This document shows positions 57,222-64,000 of a DNA stretch of 64,000 nucleotides, one piece after another. Position 1 is the stretch's first letter, and each line of letters starts with the position of its first letter. The notes under the pieces are model-generated. The model ran no database searches and was not told where the DNA came from. It was given only the letters and a program-made list of their open reading frames with translations. Position numbers and translations under genes: made by a program. Origin of the DNA: Methanolobus sp. (GTDB lineage Archaea; Halobacteriota; Methanosarcinia; Methanosarcinales; Methanosarcinaceae); NCBI RefSeq assembly GCF_016278385.1, contig NZ_JADQBY010000019.1, positions 1 to 64,000 of the forward strand, written 5' to 3'.

Positions 57222-57554
57222 TTAGAACATTGCTTCAAGTTTGTCTGCAAAGTCTGCAAGAACTGGTAGTCTGTACATGTTACCTTTGTAGGCCATGAAT
57301 ATCAGGTAAAGCCAGAGTACAAATCCAATAAGGGGCAAAAACAATAATATTAACCATCCAATAATTGGTATGAACCCCATAATAATACTCAATACGAAAA
57401 GCCCACCAAACACTACAGTGGACTGTGCTGCATGGAAGCGTACAAATTTGTTTTCCTTTTCAATAACCAACAAAAGTATGCCAGTAATGAAACCCAGTGC
57501 ATAGGCTATTACTCCTGCTATGTTTTCATCGACACCTAATTTTGTTTCGCTCAT
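57222..57554 (-). CDS. DUF4870-type small membrane protein
   Basis: A 110-residue protein with about three hydrophobic helices and the family hallmark KFVRFHAAQS. It begins MSETKLGVDENIAG at 57554, with GGAGAG just before; a longer reading to 57617 adds a non-native N-terminus and is rejected. A paralogue starting with nearly the same residues is at 57653. Function of the family is unknown, probably membrane-related. Confidence 0.88.
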   Translation of the reverse strand: MSETKLGVDENIAGVIAYALGFITGILLLVIEKENKFVRFHAAQSTVVFGGLFVLSIIMGFIPIIGWLILLFLPLIGFVLWLYLIFMAYKGNMYRLPVLADFADKLEAMF

Positions 57555-57652
57555 AATATCTCTCCTTATAATAAAACAAAAAAATATAAGAATGTTTGAG
57601 GTCAGATTACTCCGCAAACATTTTATGATTTTGTCCAGGCCAAATATTGGTC

Positions 57653-58003
57653 TTAGAATTTCTGCTCCAGTTGGTCAGCATACTCTGCAATTACTGGGAG
57701 CCTGTACATTTCACCTTTATAGGCTTTGTACATAAGGAAAAACCATAGTACTAATGAAACTAAGGTTATAAGCAATGATATTAACGCAAAGATAAATCCA
57801 ATATAGTCTATGGAAGTAAGGAATCCTATAATAAAGTTCAAAACAAACAAACCTACATACAAAACAGTAGACTGGGCTGCATGGAAACGTACGAATTTGT
57901 TGTCTTTCTCAATGATCAATAGAATTATGCCGGAAATCCAGCCAAGTAAATAGGCTAATAATCCAGCTATATTTTCACTGACACCTAATTTTGTTTCGCT
58001 CAT
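57653..58003 (-). CDS. DUF4870-type small membrane protein (paralogue)
   Basis: A 116-residue tandem paralogue of the preceding protein, with the same MSETKLGVxENIAG start, KFVRFHAAQST core and three hydrophobic helices. GGAGAG lies before its ATG at 58003. The two genes are about 100 bases apart and probably arose by duplication. No further role is evident from context. Confidence 0.88.
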   Translation of the reverse strand: MSETKLGVSENIAGLLAYLLGWISGIILLIIEKDNKFVRFHAAQSTVLYVGLFVLNFIIGFLTSIDYIGFIFALISLLITLVSLVLWFFLMYKAYKGEMYRLPVIAEYADQLEQKF

Positions 58004-58396: not shown

Positions 58397-58933
58397 TTAT
58401 TCTGCAAGTTCGAGTGTTGCATACGCGAGAAGTACTGTGGCAATAGGTGCTGTCACTAGCATACCGATTCCCAGCAGTAATGCCCCTATCATGAAAAGGA
58501 CAAGCATTATCACATATACTATTATACTTTCAACAGGCTTGGCCTTGATAATTTCAATGCTCTCTGTTATTGCCTCAATACCGCCGTATCCCTTTATTAC
58601 AAGCAGGGGCAACGCAAACATGAACAATATTCCTACTATTGTTGAGAGTATGGATGCTATCTGTCCAAGTATTCCGGCGATGACCATGTAGATCAGCATA
58701 TACACCCAGCTTCTGATGAAATCATCCTTGTTGAACCCTACAAAGACATCGCTGATCTCTATTTGCTCTCCTCTTGCTCCCTTTACAGTCATGGATGTAA
58801 ATCCATAGGCTAGAGGTGCAATGGTAACTATAAATATTGAACCAAAAACGGTTATCAATAAACCAACAATAAATGTTACAAGATTATCTTTTACAACATT
58901 CCATGAATTCTTTAATAAAACTTCATAATCCAA
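58397..58933 (-). CDS. DUF4013-type membrane protein
   Basis: A 178-residue protein with four to five hydrophobic helices (residues ~18-40, 74-110, 135-175) and the DUF4013/DUF975-like pattern (MDYEVLLKNSWNVVKDN start, then LAYGFTSMTVKGARGEQIEISDVFVGF). The family's function is unknown. It lies among other small membrane proteins and 130 bases from the pilin gene. A truncated duplicate of its start is at 58085-58190. Confidence 0.85.
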   Translation of the reverse strand: MDYEVLLKNSWNVVKDNLVTFIVGLLITVFGSIFIVTIAPLAYGFTSMTVKGARGEQIEISDVFVGFNKDDFIRSWVYMLIYMVIAGILGQIASILSTIVGILFMFALPLLVIKGYGGIEAITESIEIIKAKPVESIIVYVIMLVLFMIGALLLGIGMLVTAPIATVLLAYATLELAE

Positions 58934-59060: not shown

Positions 59061-59564
59061 TTAGAATCTAACGTCCATATCGCCAATCATCTGCTGGCTT
59101 GCAATATCAATTATCTTTACATTGATTGTTTCGCCAGATACGGCAATAGGTGTGTTATCTGTCTGTGTCATATTACTATTATCGACGAGTACCTGACCAG
59201 TTGCGTCTTCATAGTAAACGTACAGTGAATCTCCAGCGTCGAACTTAGCATCCTCTACAGATAAGTCTGTAAACAATGCAGATCCTTCTGTAGTTGCATT
59301 ACCTGAAACTGTAACTCTTGTTGTAGTGCTGGAAAATACTATCTGATCTCCGCCCTGATGCTCAAGCTTTACGACATCAGTACTTGAGACGTCTGCTGCT
59401 GATGCTCTGATACTTGCCTGTGGTGCCTGTTCAGGCGGACCCATGCCGAATACGAATGCAGCGATAACTGCAGCAAGGATTACAGTGATTGCGACCATCA
59501 GGATTACACCGATGACCGGGGATATTACGGTGTAATAAGGCTTATTTTGCTGATTAAAGGTAGT
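59061..59564 (-). pseudogene. Type IV pilin lacking its 5' end
   Basis: The body is a typical archaeal pilin: an SPVIGVILMVAITVILAAVIAAFVFG hydrophobic segment (longer than normally quoted; key part SPVIG followed by the helix), then a ~115-residue beta-rich domain. The frame is open upstream to a TAA at 59565-59567, but between that stop and the internal ATG at 59498 there is no ATG, GTG or TTG codon. The ATG at 59498 falls inside the helix and would drop the prepilin cleavage site. The first coding bases therefore seem lost. The integrase gene begins 52 bases beyond that stop, so insertion of the element is the probable cause. Confidence 0.75.
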
Positions 59565-59589
59565 TTAGACTCTATTTAGCTTATTAGGT

Positions 59590-59609
59590 ACCTCTTATTT
59601 AATAGAGGT
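59590..59609 (+). promoter_or_regulatory. Hairpin over the integrase ribosome-binding site
   Basis: A 6-base inverted repeat (ACCTCT at 59590-59595, AGAGGT at 59604-59609) with an 8-base loop includes most of the GAGGTG ribosome-binding site of the recombinase (59605-59610). In an mRNA it could hide that site. Whether it is transcribed depends on the transcription start. Confidence 0.4.
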
Positions 59610-59616
59610 GTATATA

Positions 59617-60465
59617 ATGGTATCGGAAGCAATGAAAAATCTCAGTACATTTGTCAGTTATGAGGACTTCCTTAAGCTGGAAAAGACTGCAAAAGAGTAT
59701 GAAGTACGTGCTATTAGGAAGAAAGCAAGAAAGGGTGAATACTCTTTGTTTGTAAGGATGTTATTCTTTACAGGTGCTCGTATATCTGAGGTCGTGGGTA
59801 GTAATAGGAGAGTGTACACACAATGTCTTTTCCCCGGTTTCAAGAAAAGGAAGGGTAACTGTCCCAAGTGGGCTGCACAAAGGGACGATAAGGTCTGTAT
59901 TGAAGCTGGCTGCAAATCTCTGACATCATATGTGCAAAAAGCCCATCATGGAATACGTGTCAAAGATATTGTCTTTAACGACAGGATTATCGCTGTATAC
60001 GGTAAGAATGTCAAGTCTGATGAACTCAAAGCAAGGACTGTCATCATTGATTCTGAGACACTTGAGATGCTCCGGGAGCACATTGAAAGGTATTCATTGA
60101 GACCGAATGATAAAATTATTAGTCTGAATGAAAATGGTGCTAAGACACTGGTAAATAAACTCCGTGATATCACTGAACTGCACTGGTTGACTGCACATAA
60201 GTTCAGGCATGGACACGCCGTCTATTGCATTCAGCATGGTATGGATATTCGTACTTTACAACAGCAGCTTGGTCACTCTGATTTGGGTACTACTGCTGTG
60301 TATCTTCAGTTTGCTGTTAATGAGCGGAAAAAGGCGTACGATAAGGTCTTCTCTAAAAAGCCGGACCATGTCAAGGTGCAATGTCCTTCTTGTGGGTTCA
60401 ACTTCCGTCTATGCAAAAATCACGAAATGGAATTAGAGGACCGGCTGAGTACAATGTTCCAATAG
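59617..60465 (+). CDS. Tyrosine recombinase/integrase with Cys-rich insert
   Basis: A 282-residue site-specific recombinase. The catalytic residues seen are R55 (TGARISEV), H194-x2-R197 (AHKFRHGHA), H220 (LGHSD) and the nucleophile Y229 (AVYLQ). An insert after the first catalytic Arg holds cysteines C70, C82, C94 and C99, a probable metal site, and a C-terminal tail holds a CPSCGFNFRLC motif. The ATG at 59617 follows GAGGTG; the GTG at 59608 lies within that site. It begins the foreign element and is adjacent to the beheaded pilin. Confidence 0.88.
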   Translation: MVSEAMKNLSTFVSYEDFLKLEKTAKEYEVRAIRKKARKGEYSLFVRMLFFTGARISEVVGSNRRVYTQCLFPGFKKRKGNCPKWAAQRDDKVCIEAGCKSLTSYVQKAHHGIRVKDIVFNDRIIAVYGKNVKSDELKARTVIIDSETLEMLREHIERYSLRPNDKIISLNENGAKTLVNKLRDITELHWLTAHKFRHGHAVYCIQHGMDIRTLQQQLGHSDLGTTAVYLQFAVNERKKAYDKVFSKKPDHVKVQCPSCGFNFRLCKNHEMELEDRLSTMFQ

Positions 60466-60561
60466 GATATGATTGACCATCATCCCCTCCAACCTTTCTT
60501 TTTTCCACCACCCCCCTATCACACCTGTTCTCTCATCGCAAACCTTCACCCACTCCGCCAT
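60433..60561 (-). CDS. Possible small basic/tryptophan-rich ORF (42 aa)
   Basis: A 42-residue reading frame (MAEWVKVCDERTG start) on the reverse strand that overlaps the end of the integrase gene. It has no clear ribosome-binding site. Its first residues resemble those of another short reverse-strand frame at 63870-63974. It may be a chance frame. Confidence 0.2.
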   Translation of the reverse strand: MAEWVKVCDERTGVIGGWWKKERLEGMMVNHILLEHCTQPVL

Positions 60562-60759
60562 GTGCTACGCAAACATTTAAACAGTGCTATAATAACAAGT
60601 AAACTTGTTTAGTTACAGATTGCGATTTTTGCTATATGCAATGACAGTGCCGAAAATTAAGTGGTATGTTGATATTGGTTTTTTTGTTACCTAAAGTTTA
60701 ATTGTCAGACAATTTATATTGTTTTAGCGTGTAGTAGTACCAAATACGGAGTGAAAATC
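60466..60759. promoter_or_regulatory. Regulatory gap with two palindromes before the RHH gene
   Basis: A 294-base gap between the integrase and the first ribbon-helix-helix gene. It holds a perfect dyad AACAAGT-AA-ACTTGTT at 60594-60609 and another, AATTGTC-A-GACAATT, at 60700-60714. The second abuts a TATA-like tttatatt at 60713-60720, about 45 bases before the start codon. A repressor bound there would block the promoter. Confidence 0.55.
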
Positions 60760-60966
60760 ATGACAGTAGAAAAGAAGTCAGTATCATTTCAGGAAGATTT
60801 GTTCGAAGAAATGGAGTCAAGACGTGCTGAATTCGATATGAGTCGAAGCGGTTACATTGATTCCGTTCTCCGTGTGCACTTTGGACTTGACAGCACTGAA
60901 AAACAGACCAAAGTCACAGTGCATGAAAATGTATTCTCCGATGCAGAAATAACTTCTGCACTATGA
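60760..60966 (+). CDS. Ribbon-helix-helix DNA-binding protein
   Basis: A 68-residue protein with a CopG/Arc-like pattern: the SVSFQEDLFEEMESRR beta-helix, then MSRSGYIDSVLRVHF as the second helix. It ends in an acidic tail containing HENVFSD. ATG 60760 is chosen because GGAG lies eight bases upstream; the GTG at 60751 overlaps that site. It probably regulates its own promoter through the palindromes upstream, and perhaps element copy number or excision. Confidence 0.75.
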   Translation: MTVEKKSVSFQEDLFEEMESRRAEFDMSRSGYIDSVLRVHFGLDSTEKQTKVTVHENVFSDAEITSAL

Positions 60967-61011
60967 GATGATGCGAGAACAGGCACAAGCTTCGCTCTGA
61001 GAGGCTGATAC

Positions 61012-61224
61012 ATGCCCGACAAAAACGAAATCATCCTGACACTGGACCCTGAGCTACTGCCTTATATTGACGTTCTCAGAGGCTATCAGAGCCGTTCTAC
61101 GTACATCAAGAAGGTGCTCAGGGACCACATTAAGGGTTCAGACGTTCAGTTCGGAATAGTGGACGACACGCAGGAACAGAATGTATTCTCAGAGCATGAT
61201 GATGATTTCTGTGTATTACAGTAA
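61012..61224 (+). CDS. Ribbon-helix-helix-like DNA-binding protein (second)
   Basis: A 70-residue protein with an RHH-like fold signature (IILTLDPELLPYIDVLR, then SRSTYIKKVLRDHI). Its acidic tail (QEQNVFSEHDDD) shares the NVFS motif with the tail of the preceding protein, so the two may be related by duplication and may heterodimerise. A GAGAGG site lies before the ATG. It precedes the primase-helicase gene by 63 bases and is probably co-transcribed with it. Confidence 0.65.
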   Translation: MPDKNEIILTLDPELLPYIDVLRGYQSRSTYIKKVLRDHIKGSDVQFGIVDDTQEQNVFSEHDDDFCVLQ

Positions 61225-61287
61225 TTGAAAATATTACATCAGGGCTGAGGTCCAAGTCAGCCCCAAGAAAAAGTTAACGTGATTTAA

Positions 61288-63123
61288 ATGAACAAAGACA
61301 TCAGTATTAAAATAGATTCCGGTACACCTTCCGAGGATACCGCAGAACAGAACAACGCAATCACTGATTTTGCAGAGCTTAATTCAGCCCTTGTTGAAAA
61401 GACCTATGAGACATCCAACTCTGACCTGTCATTCACCTTTAAGGAAGTGCTTAAGGGTGGAATGTACAAGATAACCGTGAAGGCTCTGTACAAACAGGTT
61501 GTAGTCACTGACAGGGACTTCGATTATGATATCATCCTGAAGGCTGACCACAGGTTCAAAAAGGAGTTCATCAACCAGATTGAACATGACACCGGCAAAG
61601 CAATCAAGAAAAACGATGTAAATAACCTGCTTAATGAAGCCGTCCTCAAGTTCAAGGATGAGCCTGACTTCAAGGCTCACCATGAAGCGTACCAGTGTCT
61701 TGAAAACTTGCGTATACAGGAACTCAAGAACAGGACATCATCATTCCTTAAGGTCGATGAGATGGGTCGTGCGTATGGGATATTCGTACACAACCTTGCA
61801 ACATCATTGATGAAAGAGTACACTTTCCTGACACTTGATGACACACATGAGGTCTTATACTACGAAGATGGAAAGTACAGGCATGGTGGCGAAAATCTTA
61901 TCCGACTACTTGTCCAGAGAGAGCTTCTGAATGAGAGCACTGAGAAGTATCAGAGGGAAGTACTGAACTACATCAAGCATGAGACCCTGATTGAACGTAA
62001 GCACTTCAATCTACCATGCAGGATAATCAACTTCAAAAATGGTCTCTATGAAGTTGAAACACGTACATTCCATAAACACACACCTGAGCACCTGAGCACC
62101 ATGCAACTTAACGTGGACTATGACCCTGATGCTAAGTGTCCAAAGATAGAGAAGTTCATGTCAGAAATCCTACCTAAAGATGTTGACCGGGATGGTACTC
62201 TTGAGTTCACTGGATATGGTATGATTAATGAGAACAACATGCGTAAAGCCTTCATGGGTCTTGGAAATGGTAAGAACGGTAAAACCCAATTTTTCAAACT
62301 TGTCATGAAGCTCTTTGAAGGTCAGTTCAGCATGGAAGCCATACAGGACTTGGAGAAGGATAAGTTCGCTGCACATAACACATGTTGGAAGATGCTTAAC
62401 ATCATGCCTGACCTTCCATCAGAACCACTTGATGACAGCAAGGCTTACAAGACCATTGTTGGTAATGACGGTTTCATCAAGGGTGAAGCCAAGTACATGC
62501 CCGGATATCTTTTCAGACCAACCATCAGGATGATGTTCATGGCTAATCAGGCTCCTTGGGCGCACTTTGAGAACAATGATGCTTACTATGACCGCTGGCT
62601 CTTAGTTGAGTTCAAGCAGCGTTTCGAAGGTCAGAGCGATAACAAGAACCTGTTCAATGAGATATCCACTGATGAAGAGATGGAAGGTTTTGCACAACTG
62701 CTCATCAAACACCTTCACAACTTGCTGGAGCGTGGCGAATATGCCAATGAGAAAGATTTACAGGAGACCAAGAAGATATACTTAATACGTGCTGACCATG
62801 TAAGAGCATTCGTCATGGACCGTCTTGAAGAGGATGATGAAGGTGGTAGGTCAAGCACTGTCAAAGACGTGTACGACTGCTACAAGCAATGGTGTTCAGA
62901 AAACGACATTGCAGGTGTAAAGAGCGGTCCAGAACTCAAGAAAAGGTTTAAGAAGCTCTATGGATGGGAGTTCAAGCAGTTATGGGATAGTGTTAATAAT
63001 GGCAAGGTCTGCTGGGTAGGTATCAGAATCAAGGGTGAACAGGGAAATTCTGGTTCATCATTCACACCATCATTCCCAAGAACACCTTCTCCACCTAAGA
63101 TAGCATTACCACCTGTGAACTGA
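61288..63123 (+). CDS. P4-type phage/plasmid primase-helicase
   Basis: A 611-residue SF3 helicase of the D5/P4 family. Residues ~270-500 are the helicase core: Walker A in FMGLGNGKNGKTQFF near residue 330, Walker B-like NIMPDLPSEPLDD near residue 370, and the MMFMANQAP sensor stretch near 415. The N-terminal half lacks an obvious active archaeal primase motif set, although length and layout fit primase-helicases of integrated plasmids and proviruses. The C-terminal tail is a Pro/Ser-rich extension. It is the likely replication initiator of the element; an origin-like region lies immediately downstream. Confidence 0.85.
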   Translation: MNKDISIKIDSGTPSEDTAEQNNAITDFAELNSALVEKTYETSNSDLSFTFKEVLKGGMYKITVKALYKQVVVTDRDFDYDIILKADHRFKKEFINQIEHDTGKAIKKNDVNNLLNEAVLKFKDEPDFKAHHEAYQCLENLRIQELKNRTSSFLKVDEMGRAYGIFVHNLATSLMKEYTFLTLDDTHEVLYYEDGKYRHGGENLIRLLVQRELLNESTEKYQREVLNYIKHETLIERKHFNLPCRIINFKNGLYEVETRTFHKHTPEHLSTMQLNVDYDPDAKCPKIEKFMSEILPKDVDRDGTLEFTGYGMINENNMRKAFMGLGNGKNGKTQFFKLVMKLFEGQFSMEAIQDLEKDKFAAHNTCWKMLNIMPDLPSEPLDDSKAYKTIVGNDGFIKGEAKYMPGYLFRPTIRMMFMANQAPWAHFENNDAYYDRWLLVEFKQRFEGQSDNKNLFNEISTDEEMEGFAQLLIKHLHNLLERGEYANEKDLQETKKIYLIRADHVRAFVMDRLEEDDEGGRSSTVKDVYDCYKQWCSENDIAGVKSGPELKKRFKKLYGWEFKQLWDSVNNGKVCWVGIRIKGEQGNSGSSFTPSFPRTPSPPKIALPPVN

Positions 63124-63196
63124 CCCCACCCAAGATTTTACTTTTGGTGAAATTTCAAGACCCCTTGAAGGCTCACCCAAGTTTTTACTATTTTTT

Positions 63197-63415
63197 ACCA
63201 AGAAAAAAAACTCGGCTTTTTCGTTATCCTGTTCCACTTTTGCTTGAAAACCCAAAGAAAAAACATATGTTCAAAAACCTTATTTTATATAGGGATTTTT
63301 TTTTCAGAAAAAAATTTCCCTATACTGGAGTACACTTTTTTTTTGTAAAATTTTCTTGGGGTTTTTCGTCAAACAATGATAATGCTATCGAATAAACAGA
63401 GTTTTTTTTCTTGGT
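63197..63415. repeat. Inverted repeat pair around an AT-rich hairpin (possible replication origin)
   Basis: A perfect 16-base inverted repeat (ACCAAG-A8-CT at 63197-63212 and its complement at 63400-63415) flanks an AT-rich core. In the core lies a hairpin, TATAGGGA at 63288-63295 with TCCCTATA at 63317-63324. Additional boxes are ACCCAAG at 63128-63134 and 63175-63181, and CTTGG(G) at 63355, 63410, 63421, 63458 and 63488. The change in orientation of the boxes across the core resembles origin-binding sites around a melting region. Confidence 0.6.
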
Positions 63416-63978
63416 GAAAACTTGGGTTTCGAGTCTCTGCATAACGAAAATTAAAATCTTGGTTCCAGTGGAAATATAGGTAATAATCTTGGGTTAAGAT
63501 TGAAGTCCGTTTTAGAGCAGGTTTAAGCACTTGACGAGCTTCACAGATGGTATGACACTACTGAACCTGAGAACTCATTGTGACGGGAGTGTACACAGGC
63601 AAATTATGGATAATAAACCATGTATCAAAAGCAATACTGTATTCAGTCCTGAAACACACCTGAAACCCTGATACGAAGAAGATAATCCACCCATCTATCA
63701 ATCAGCCTGTTCTTAAAACCCAGATACCTTGCAGGGACTCAAAAACACCTTCAACGTATAGCACTTTTTGAAACCGTGACAGCTTGAGCGGAAGCCCGAG
63801 CGAGTACCTGTAGCGCCATTGGAAACCACATCCCACTACCACTGAAATGCGTAACAGTGGACATGATTGTCACTCATGCCGAGTGCATGCAATGGACCTG
63901 AAATCACCGGAACGCCGTTTGATAATGGCGCCGGGAAAGAGCACCTTCTCAGAATCGCAAACACGTTCAGCCATGTTG

Positions 63979-64000
63979 CTTTCAATCCCTTAGTGGTATT
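63979..64000. other. CRISPR-repeat-like sequence at the window edge
   Basis: The last 22 bases read CTTTCAATCCCTTAGTGGTATT. Many archaeal CRISPR repeats begin or end with CTTTCAATCC/GGATTGAAAG. Only one partial copy is visible, so no array can be called; the reverse complement would end in ATTGAAAG like a repeat 3' handle. Confidence 0.25.

Follow-up and report, generated by a model that had tools for sequence, protein, structure and literature searches.

In Moraxella, Piv carries out pilin inversion, a site-specific recombination within the coding sequence which joins a constant N-terminus to alternative bodies. Gonococci hold silent, 5'-truncated pilin cassettes (pilS), and alleles of P. 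aeruginosa pilA are exchanged horizontally at one locus. Archaeal pilins are highly variable, and we know of no general mechanism for this variability. In the Sulfolobales, the variable regions of the Ups pilins decide which cells recognise each other (PMC7064770). Integration into archaeal protein-coding genes is already known: 14 thaumarchaeal integrations in protein genes lie in 3'-distal regions (Krupovic et al. 2019, PMC6563490). A pilin target is described neither in that study nor in the review of archaeal tyrosine recombinases (PMC8371274). Among mobile elements of other kinds, excision of the dusA-associated islands was demonstrated by PCR (Farrugia et al. 2015, PMC4482086), and the flagellin-remodelling prophages FR-phi, with TldR, replace the host filament subunit by the phage's own (PMC13418256). 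Parallels thus exist; a description of a pilin-swapping element itself was not found in the open-access literature.

Here we analysed a window of 64,000 bases, which corresponds to bases 1-64,000 of contig C4 (109,650 bases; Methanolobus-type). With a probability of about 0.86, we propose that it holds one end of a type of integrative element (3.9-37.3 kb) whose tyrosine recombinase takes the SPVIG codons within a pilin gene as its site and swaps the pilin body. The features concerned are listed below.

58397-58933, minus strand: GPDPase_memb-like membrane protein of the host flank (PF10110, E=9e-8; synteny)
59061-59524, minus strand: headless resident pilin, that is, mature body and SPVIG core (PF07790), homologous to the intact pilin at C4:73,796-74,287
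59509-59524, no strand: attL core CCGATGACCGGGGATA (reverse complement TATCCCCGGTCATCGG), repeated exactly at C4:74,235-74,250 (attR), outside the window
59525-64000, no strand: left part of the integrated element, which continues to C4:74,250 (rejoined flanks and synteny of empty loci)
59536-59563, minus strand: putative integrase arm site CTACCTTTAATCAGCAAAATAAGCCTTA, its role suggested by position and conservation
59617-60465, plus strand: tyrosine recombinase (integrase), 282 aa from the ATG (PF00589, E=1.2e-16); first in-frame GTG at 59,608
60751-60966, plus strand: small protein of 71 aa (open reading frame), possibly of ribbon-helix-helix fold as judged by eye
61012-61224, plus strand: small protein of 70 aa (open reading frame), resembling its 71-aa neighbour in style
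61288-63123, plus strand: D5-type primase/helicase, 611 aa, replication protein of the element (PF08706, E=5.1e-14; PF19263, E=3.3e-13; phrog_864, E=2.5e-55)

The minus-strand frame at 59,061-59,564 matched the archaeal type IV pilin family PF07790 in the Pfam search (E=1.6e-22), and the hydrophobic N-terminal domain Pilin_N is present in this frame as well as in the intact pilin described below. Its upstream limit is the TAA at 59,565-59,567, and none of the 15 codons between this stop and the P of SPVIG is ATG, GTG or TTG. The frame re-read in this way and its family match agree with the first-pass annotation, which had described a pilin frame open to a stop at 59565 with no start before SPVIG. 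The listed open reading frame from the ATG at 59,498 begins within the membrane helix (ILMVAIT) and lacks a leader. The annotation also had the recombinase begin shortly past the stop, and it does, at the GTG at 59,608 or, at the start position of the homologues, at the ATG at 59,617. It was right in placing the integration within the pilin gene's first codons and in expecting a direct repeat at the element ends, but spread the junction over 59,525-59,564 and the repeat over 59,525-59,560; the shared core is at 59,509-59,524, and everything from 59,525 up to the recombinase is element sequence. The GPDPase_memb gene comes after the headless pilin, as it does beside the pilin in many element-free relatives. 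A tandem pair of DUF4870 membrane-protein genes (57222-58003) adjoins the pilin locus, and their order and number differ between relatives.

The missing pilin start, which had been predicted to lie beyond 64000, was found at the other end of the element. A DNA search detected a second pilin in the same genome (C4:74,114-74,250, 90% identical over 137 bases), which belongs to an intact gene of 163 aa at C4:73,796-74,287 (PF07790, E=2.4e-25). It starts at 74,287 and begins MSKANQFLNEDAVSPVIG. This hybrid pilin has the N-terminus MSKANQFLNEDAVS followed by PVIG, so the leader peptide of 14 codons that is missing ahead of the processing site in the window is present in this copy. Alignment placed the exact 16-base core TATCCCCGGTCATCGG, which encodes SPVIG, in both pilins, 14,726 bases apart from core to core. 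On the leader side of the core, similarity between the two copies ends immediately; on the body side it spans the membrane helix, fades, and reappears at the C-terminus and terminator. Beyond the helix, the element and resident bodies are 51% identical. When the host flanks were rejoined in silico, a complete resident pilin resulted. The repeats are direct and both bodies lie on the same strand, which does not match a Moraxella-type pilin inversion. The earlier suggestion that pilin expression is lost, or switched on and off, was rejected, because at the far end the gene is completed by the element body; excision is predicted to change the kind of pilin produced, and not whether a pilin is produced at all.

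In the AF2 model of the hybrid pilin (pLDDT 84.7), a helix at residues 14-39 is followed by a beta domain with strands at 49-162, as in solved archaeal pili. The best PDB match was the Haloferax volcanii pilus 8fj5 (E=1.8e-5, TM 0.45-0.52), which was also matched by sequence. Since the cut lies just ahead of the helix, the host supplies essentially only the leader.

The integrase has the catalytic residues expected of a tyrosine recombinase (R55, K130, H194xxR197, H220 and Y229, invariant in an alignment of 10 homologues) and a C-terminal CxxC motif. Together with the direct repeats at the ends and the empty site in relatives, these residues identify a tyrosine-recombinase integrative element, and the integrase probably catalyses the recombination. 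Sequence resembling the putative arm site occurs left of the core in other elements, including one sited at an aminotransferase gene; both kinds of target have a similar arm motif, CTACCTTTAATnnnCAAAATAA, beside the core. The 71-aa protein had no match in Pfam or PHROG and the 70-aa protein none in Pfam.

Of 238 genomes of the class, 9 (among them that of the window) contain relatives of the integrase (59-75% identity), and another lies on a separate contig, L024. Nine of these ten elements are pilin-sited, namely those of G000 (the window's genome), G044, G056 (=L023; Methanolobus MAG contig NZ_JAUXNK010000095.1), G024, G029, G073, G112 (=L025/G183), G113 (=L026/G157) and L024, and the integrases of these are 64-75% identical to that of the window. 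In all nine, a headless pilin is cut between the S and the P of (V)SPVIG, about 70-90 bases from the integrase. Because eight other elements have the identical codon cut next to a related integrase, the headless arrangement is far beyond chance. Both ends are covered in seven of the nine (14.7, 30.6, 3.9, 9.5, 29.6, 31.2 and 37.3 kb) and only the headless end in two. Every two-ended element has an intact pilin with leader at its far end and exact repeats of 16-117 bases, and its rejoined host flanks give a complete resident pilin. In all seven, both bodies are open (119-140 aa) and 37-59% identical beyond the helix; the copies share a 5' island (core/helix) and a 3' island (C-terminus and/or terminator), with the variable part between them. 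Three of the seven (G044, G029 and G073) stand in assemblies of one or two contigs, which argues against assembly error.

In an all-against-all comparison, only the integrase and the pilin body were common to the seven two-ended elements. The differing cargo includes D5-type primases (G000, G029), type I restriction-modification (G029, G073), polysaccharide genes (G044), and coupling-protein-like ATPases and a serine recombinase (G112). The G112 element (L096, L097; G112:C14) carries a second whole pilin gene, so that a pilin pair is exchanged. In the window's genome, a second tyrosine recombinase lies within the element (C4:68,442-69,032; L013:11442-12032); it shares 55-60% identity with recombinases of the G044 and G024 elements and is missing from the other four. 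The same element has an adjacent gene pair (C4:71,508-72,827; L013:14508-15827), one member of which matches the candidate defence family PDC-S02 and phrog_10226 while the other is weakly endonuclease/exonuclease/phosphatase-like, and a JAB-domain protein is close by. No virion structural genes were recognised among the proteins scanned, the JAB protein giving one weak tail-family match. Assignment to a specific virus family was rejected: the seven elements have no replication or virion genes in common, and searches of the IMG/VR, phage and plasmid collections with the integrase returned only distant recombinases.

The tenth integrase (G019, 59% identity) adjoins a headless aminotransferase gene (L031 / G019:C9:296,838-318,046), so the site of the integrase family is not exclusive to pilins. 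A complete copy, about 99% identical in the shared part, lies at the other end, about 20.8 kb off. What the target gene lacks is provided by the element here as in the pilin elements, and the anatomy is therefore general; the protein is essentially unchanged in this single control and is exchanged in all seven two-ended pilin cases.

In about 20 other Methanolobus genomes, the element-free locus runs uninterrupted in the order UPF0210, ACT, DUF5371, pilin, and GPDPase_memb or DUF4870. Our survey of the locus covered 27 genomes, with one pilin copy each. The relatives without the element have a single intact pilin there, and the start-less arrangement without an element, which would have counted against the first-pass annotation, was not seen. 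The window's genome has the intact pilin on the DUF5371 side and the headless pilin on the GPDPase_memb side; therefore the headless body is the former resident, and the body of the intact gene came with the element. The DUF5371 gene upstream of the pilin (L013:17313-17519; C4:74,313-74,519) is mostly 93-100% identical across the genus, and it adjoins this pilin at every locus where the upstream side was covered.

Exchange of bodies across the genus is evident from the comparison of these loci. The Mantel correlation of pilin-body distance with UPF0210 distance was r=-0.15 (p=0.95; 24 genomes), that of ACT with UPF0210 distance was r=0.88, and that of the downstream GPDPase_memb gene, on the other side of the pilin, was r=0.51 (p=0.007; 10 genomes). 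Saturation could lower r, yet it cannot explain pairs such as G055 and G040, in which UPF0210 is 100%, ACT 99% and the pilin body 40% identical. Counted from the core proline codon, the DNA of several near-identical pairs is mismatch-free between -60 and about +8, and differences set in at +8 to +29. Towards the core, the correlation with flank distance drops from about 0.7 to about 0.2. Variation there is too low for a sharp breakpoint map of the genus, which was therefore rejected, and only the near-identical pairs place the breakpoint near the core. G056 has a third pilin body without head or helix (L032:7,498-7,860) behind a transposase-like stretch, which is probably the scar of an earlier pilin exchange. 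An insensitive search with the C-terminal motif found no such scars within 1.5 kb at 24 loci.

We propose the following mechanism. The chromosomal target would be the SPVIG codons, a few residues past the leader of a type IV pilin gene, and next to its own attachment core the element would bring a pilin body that has neither promoter nor leader. Recombination would link the promoter, ribosome site and leader of the host to the body of the element, and this hybrid is predicted to be the pilin made. The resident body would be stranded without a start at the integrase end and may be silent. In the G044 element, GTG codons with a basic stretch lie upstream of the headless copy; therefore its silence is not certain everywhere. 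Recombination of core with core would excise the element and reverse the swap. In a different event, the two bodies would recombine through their conserved 3' ends, so that the element is lost and the new pilin stays. Such recombination at the 3' island would account for the clean replacements in element-free genomes.

The two pilin copies that flank the element could also have arisen by tandem duplication, with an unrelated element landing between them and the start of one copy decaying later. The common codon cut of all nine headless copies, with integrase-side sequence there, the single pilin at the locus in about 20 element-free genomes, and repeats that stop sharply at the core led us to reject this very improbable course of events. 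It is also conceivable that homologous recombination between strains, not the integrase, creates the pilin differences and that the elements merely sit at a conserved site. Element-free sister genomes indeed differ in their bodies with clean flanks on both sides, and because helix and 3' ends are conserved and provide homology, body exchange in these genomes could be ordinary homologous recombination. As a general account this is unlikely, because it does not yield the two bodies that coexist at the element ends in occupied genomes, and near-identical pairs have their 5' switch point no more than about 30 bases from the core.

A further explanation shares the anatomy of pilin swapping and differs in the purpose that it assumes, so that confidence in the two overlaps: the element may carry the rest of the gene merely to spare its host, the difference being incidental as pilins diverge fast. 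This is a serious possibility that comes near an even chance without reaching it. Target restoration is usual for integrases (PMC8371274), and with this anatomy the aminotransferase element rebuilds a nearly identical gene. The helix-coding DNA of resident and element copies is identical at 80-81 of 81 positions in G024, G029, G073 and G112, and elements and hosts therefore draw on one gene pool. Repair of the same protein, however, would not yield bodies of 37-59% identity beside helix DNA of 99-100% identity, nor would it explain a different body in every two-ended pilin element and the additional pilin gene in G112. If the swap serves a purpose of its own, we suggest tentatively, and with rather more doubt than belief, a reversible surface-filament switch: on integration the pilin of the element would be worn, excision would restore the host's own, and deletion through the 3' ends would fix the change. 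Such a switch may feed a genus-wide pool of interchangeable bodies, altering mating or self-recognition or blocking pilus-dependent viruses. Pilin swapping may benefit the host or the element; species recognition, escape from viruses that use the pilus and harmless housing of the element are possible alternative purposes.

If pilin swapping is true, an element that puts its own pilin behind the host leader would be a mechanism for archaeal pilin variability, and surface identity would be tied to the carriage of mobile elements that leave readable scars behind. Insertion would exchange one surface filament protein for another without destroying the gene. The seven attL/attR pairs offer a test system with a predicted, checkable outcome.

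The present system differs from the known ones as follows. In Moraxella, a resident segment is inverted by an unrelated recombinase, whereas here a mobile element integrates. The pilS and pilA systems depend on homologous recombination, whereas here an integrase and an attachment core stand at the junction. Direct-repeat att sites in coding genes are shared with other archaeal elements in protein-coding genes (PMC6563490, PMC8371274). As with the dusA islands, the integrase is directed at a conserved part of a protein gene close to its 5' end, part of the gene is supplied by the element, and the old part stays as a remnant (PMC4482086). However, it is the 5' end that those islands supply, essentially restoring the enzyme, whereas here the 5' end of the host is joined to almost the whole of a divergent mature protein borne by the element. 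FR-phi prophages likewise exchange a host surface-filament subunit for their own, but do so by RNA-guided repression of the host gene and a complete phage flagellin gene, in place of the in-gene recombination proposed here (PMC13418256). In conclusion, the dusA islands (PMC4482086) are nearest in mechanism and the flagellin-remodelling phages (PMC13418256) nearest in effect.
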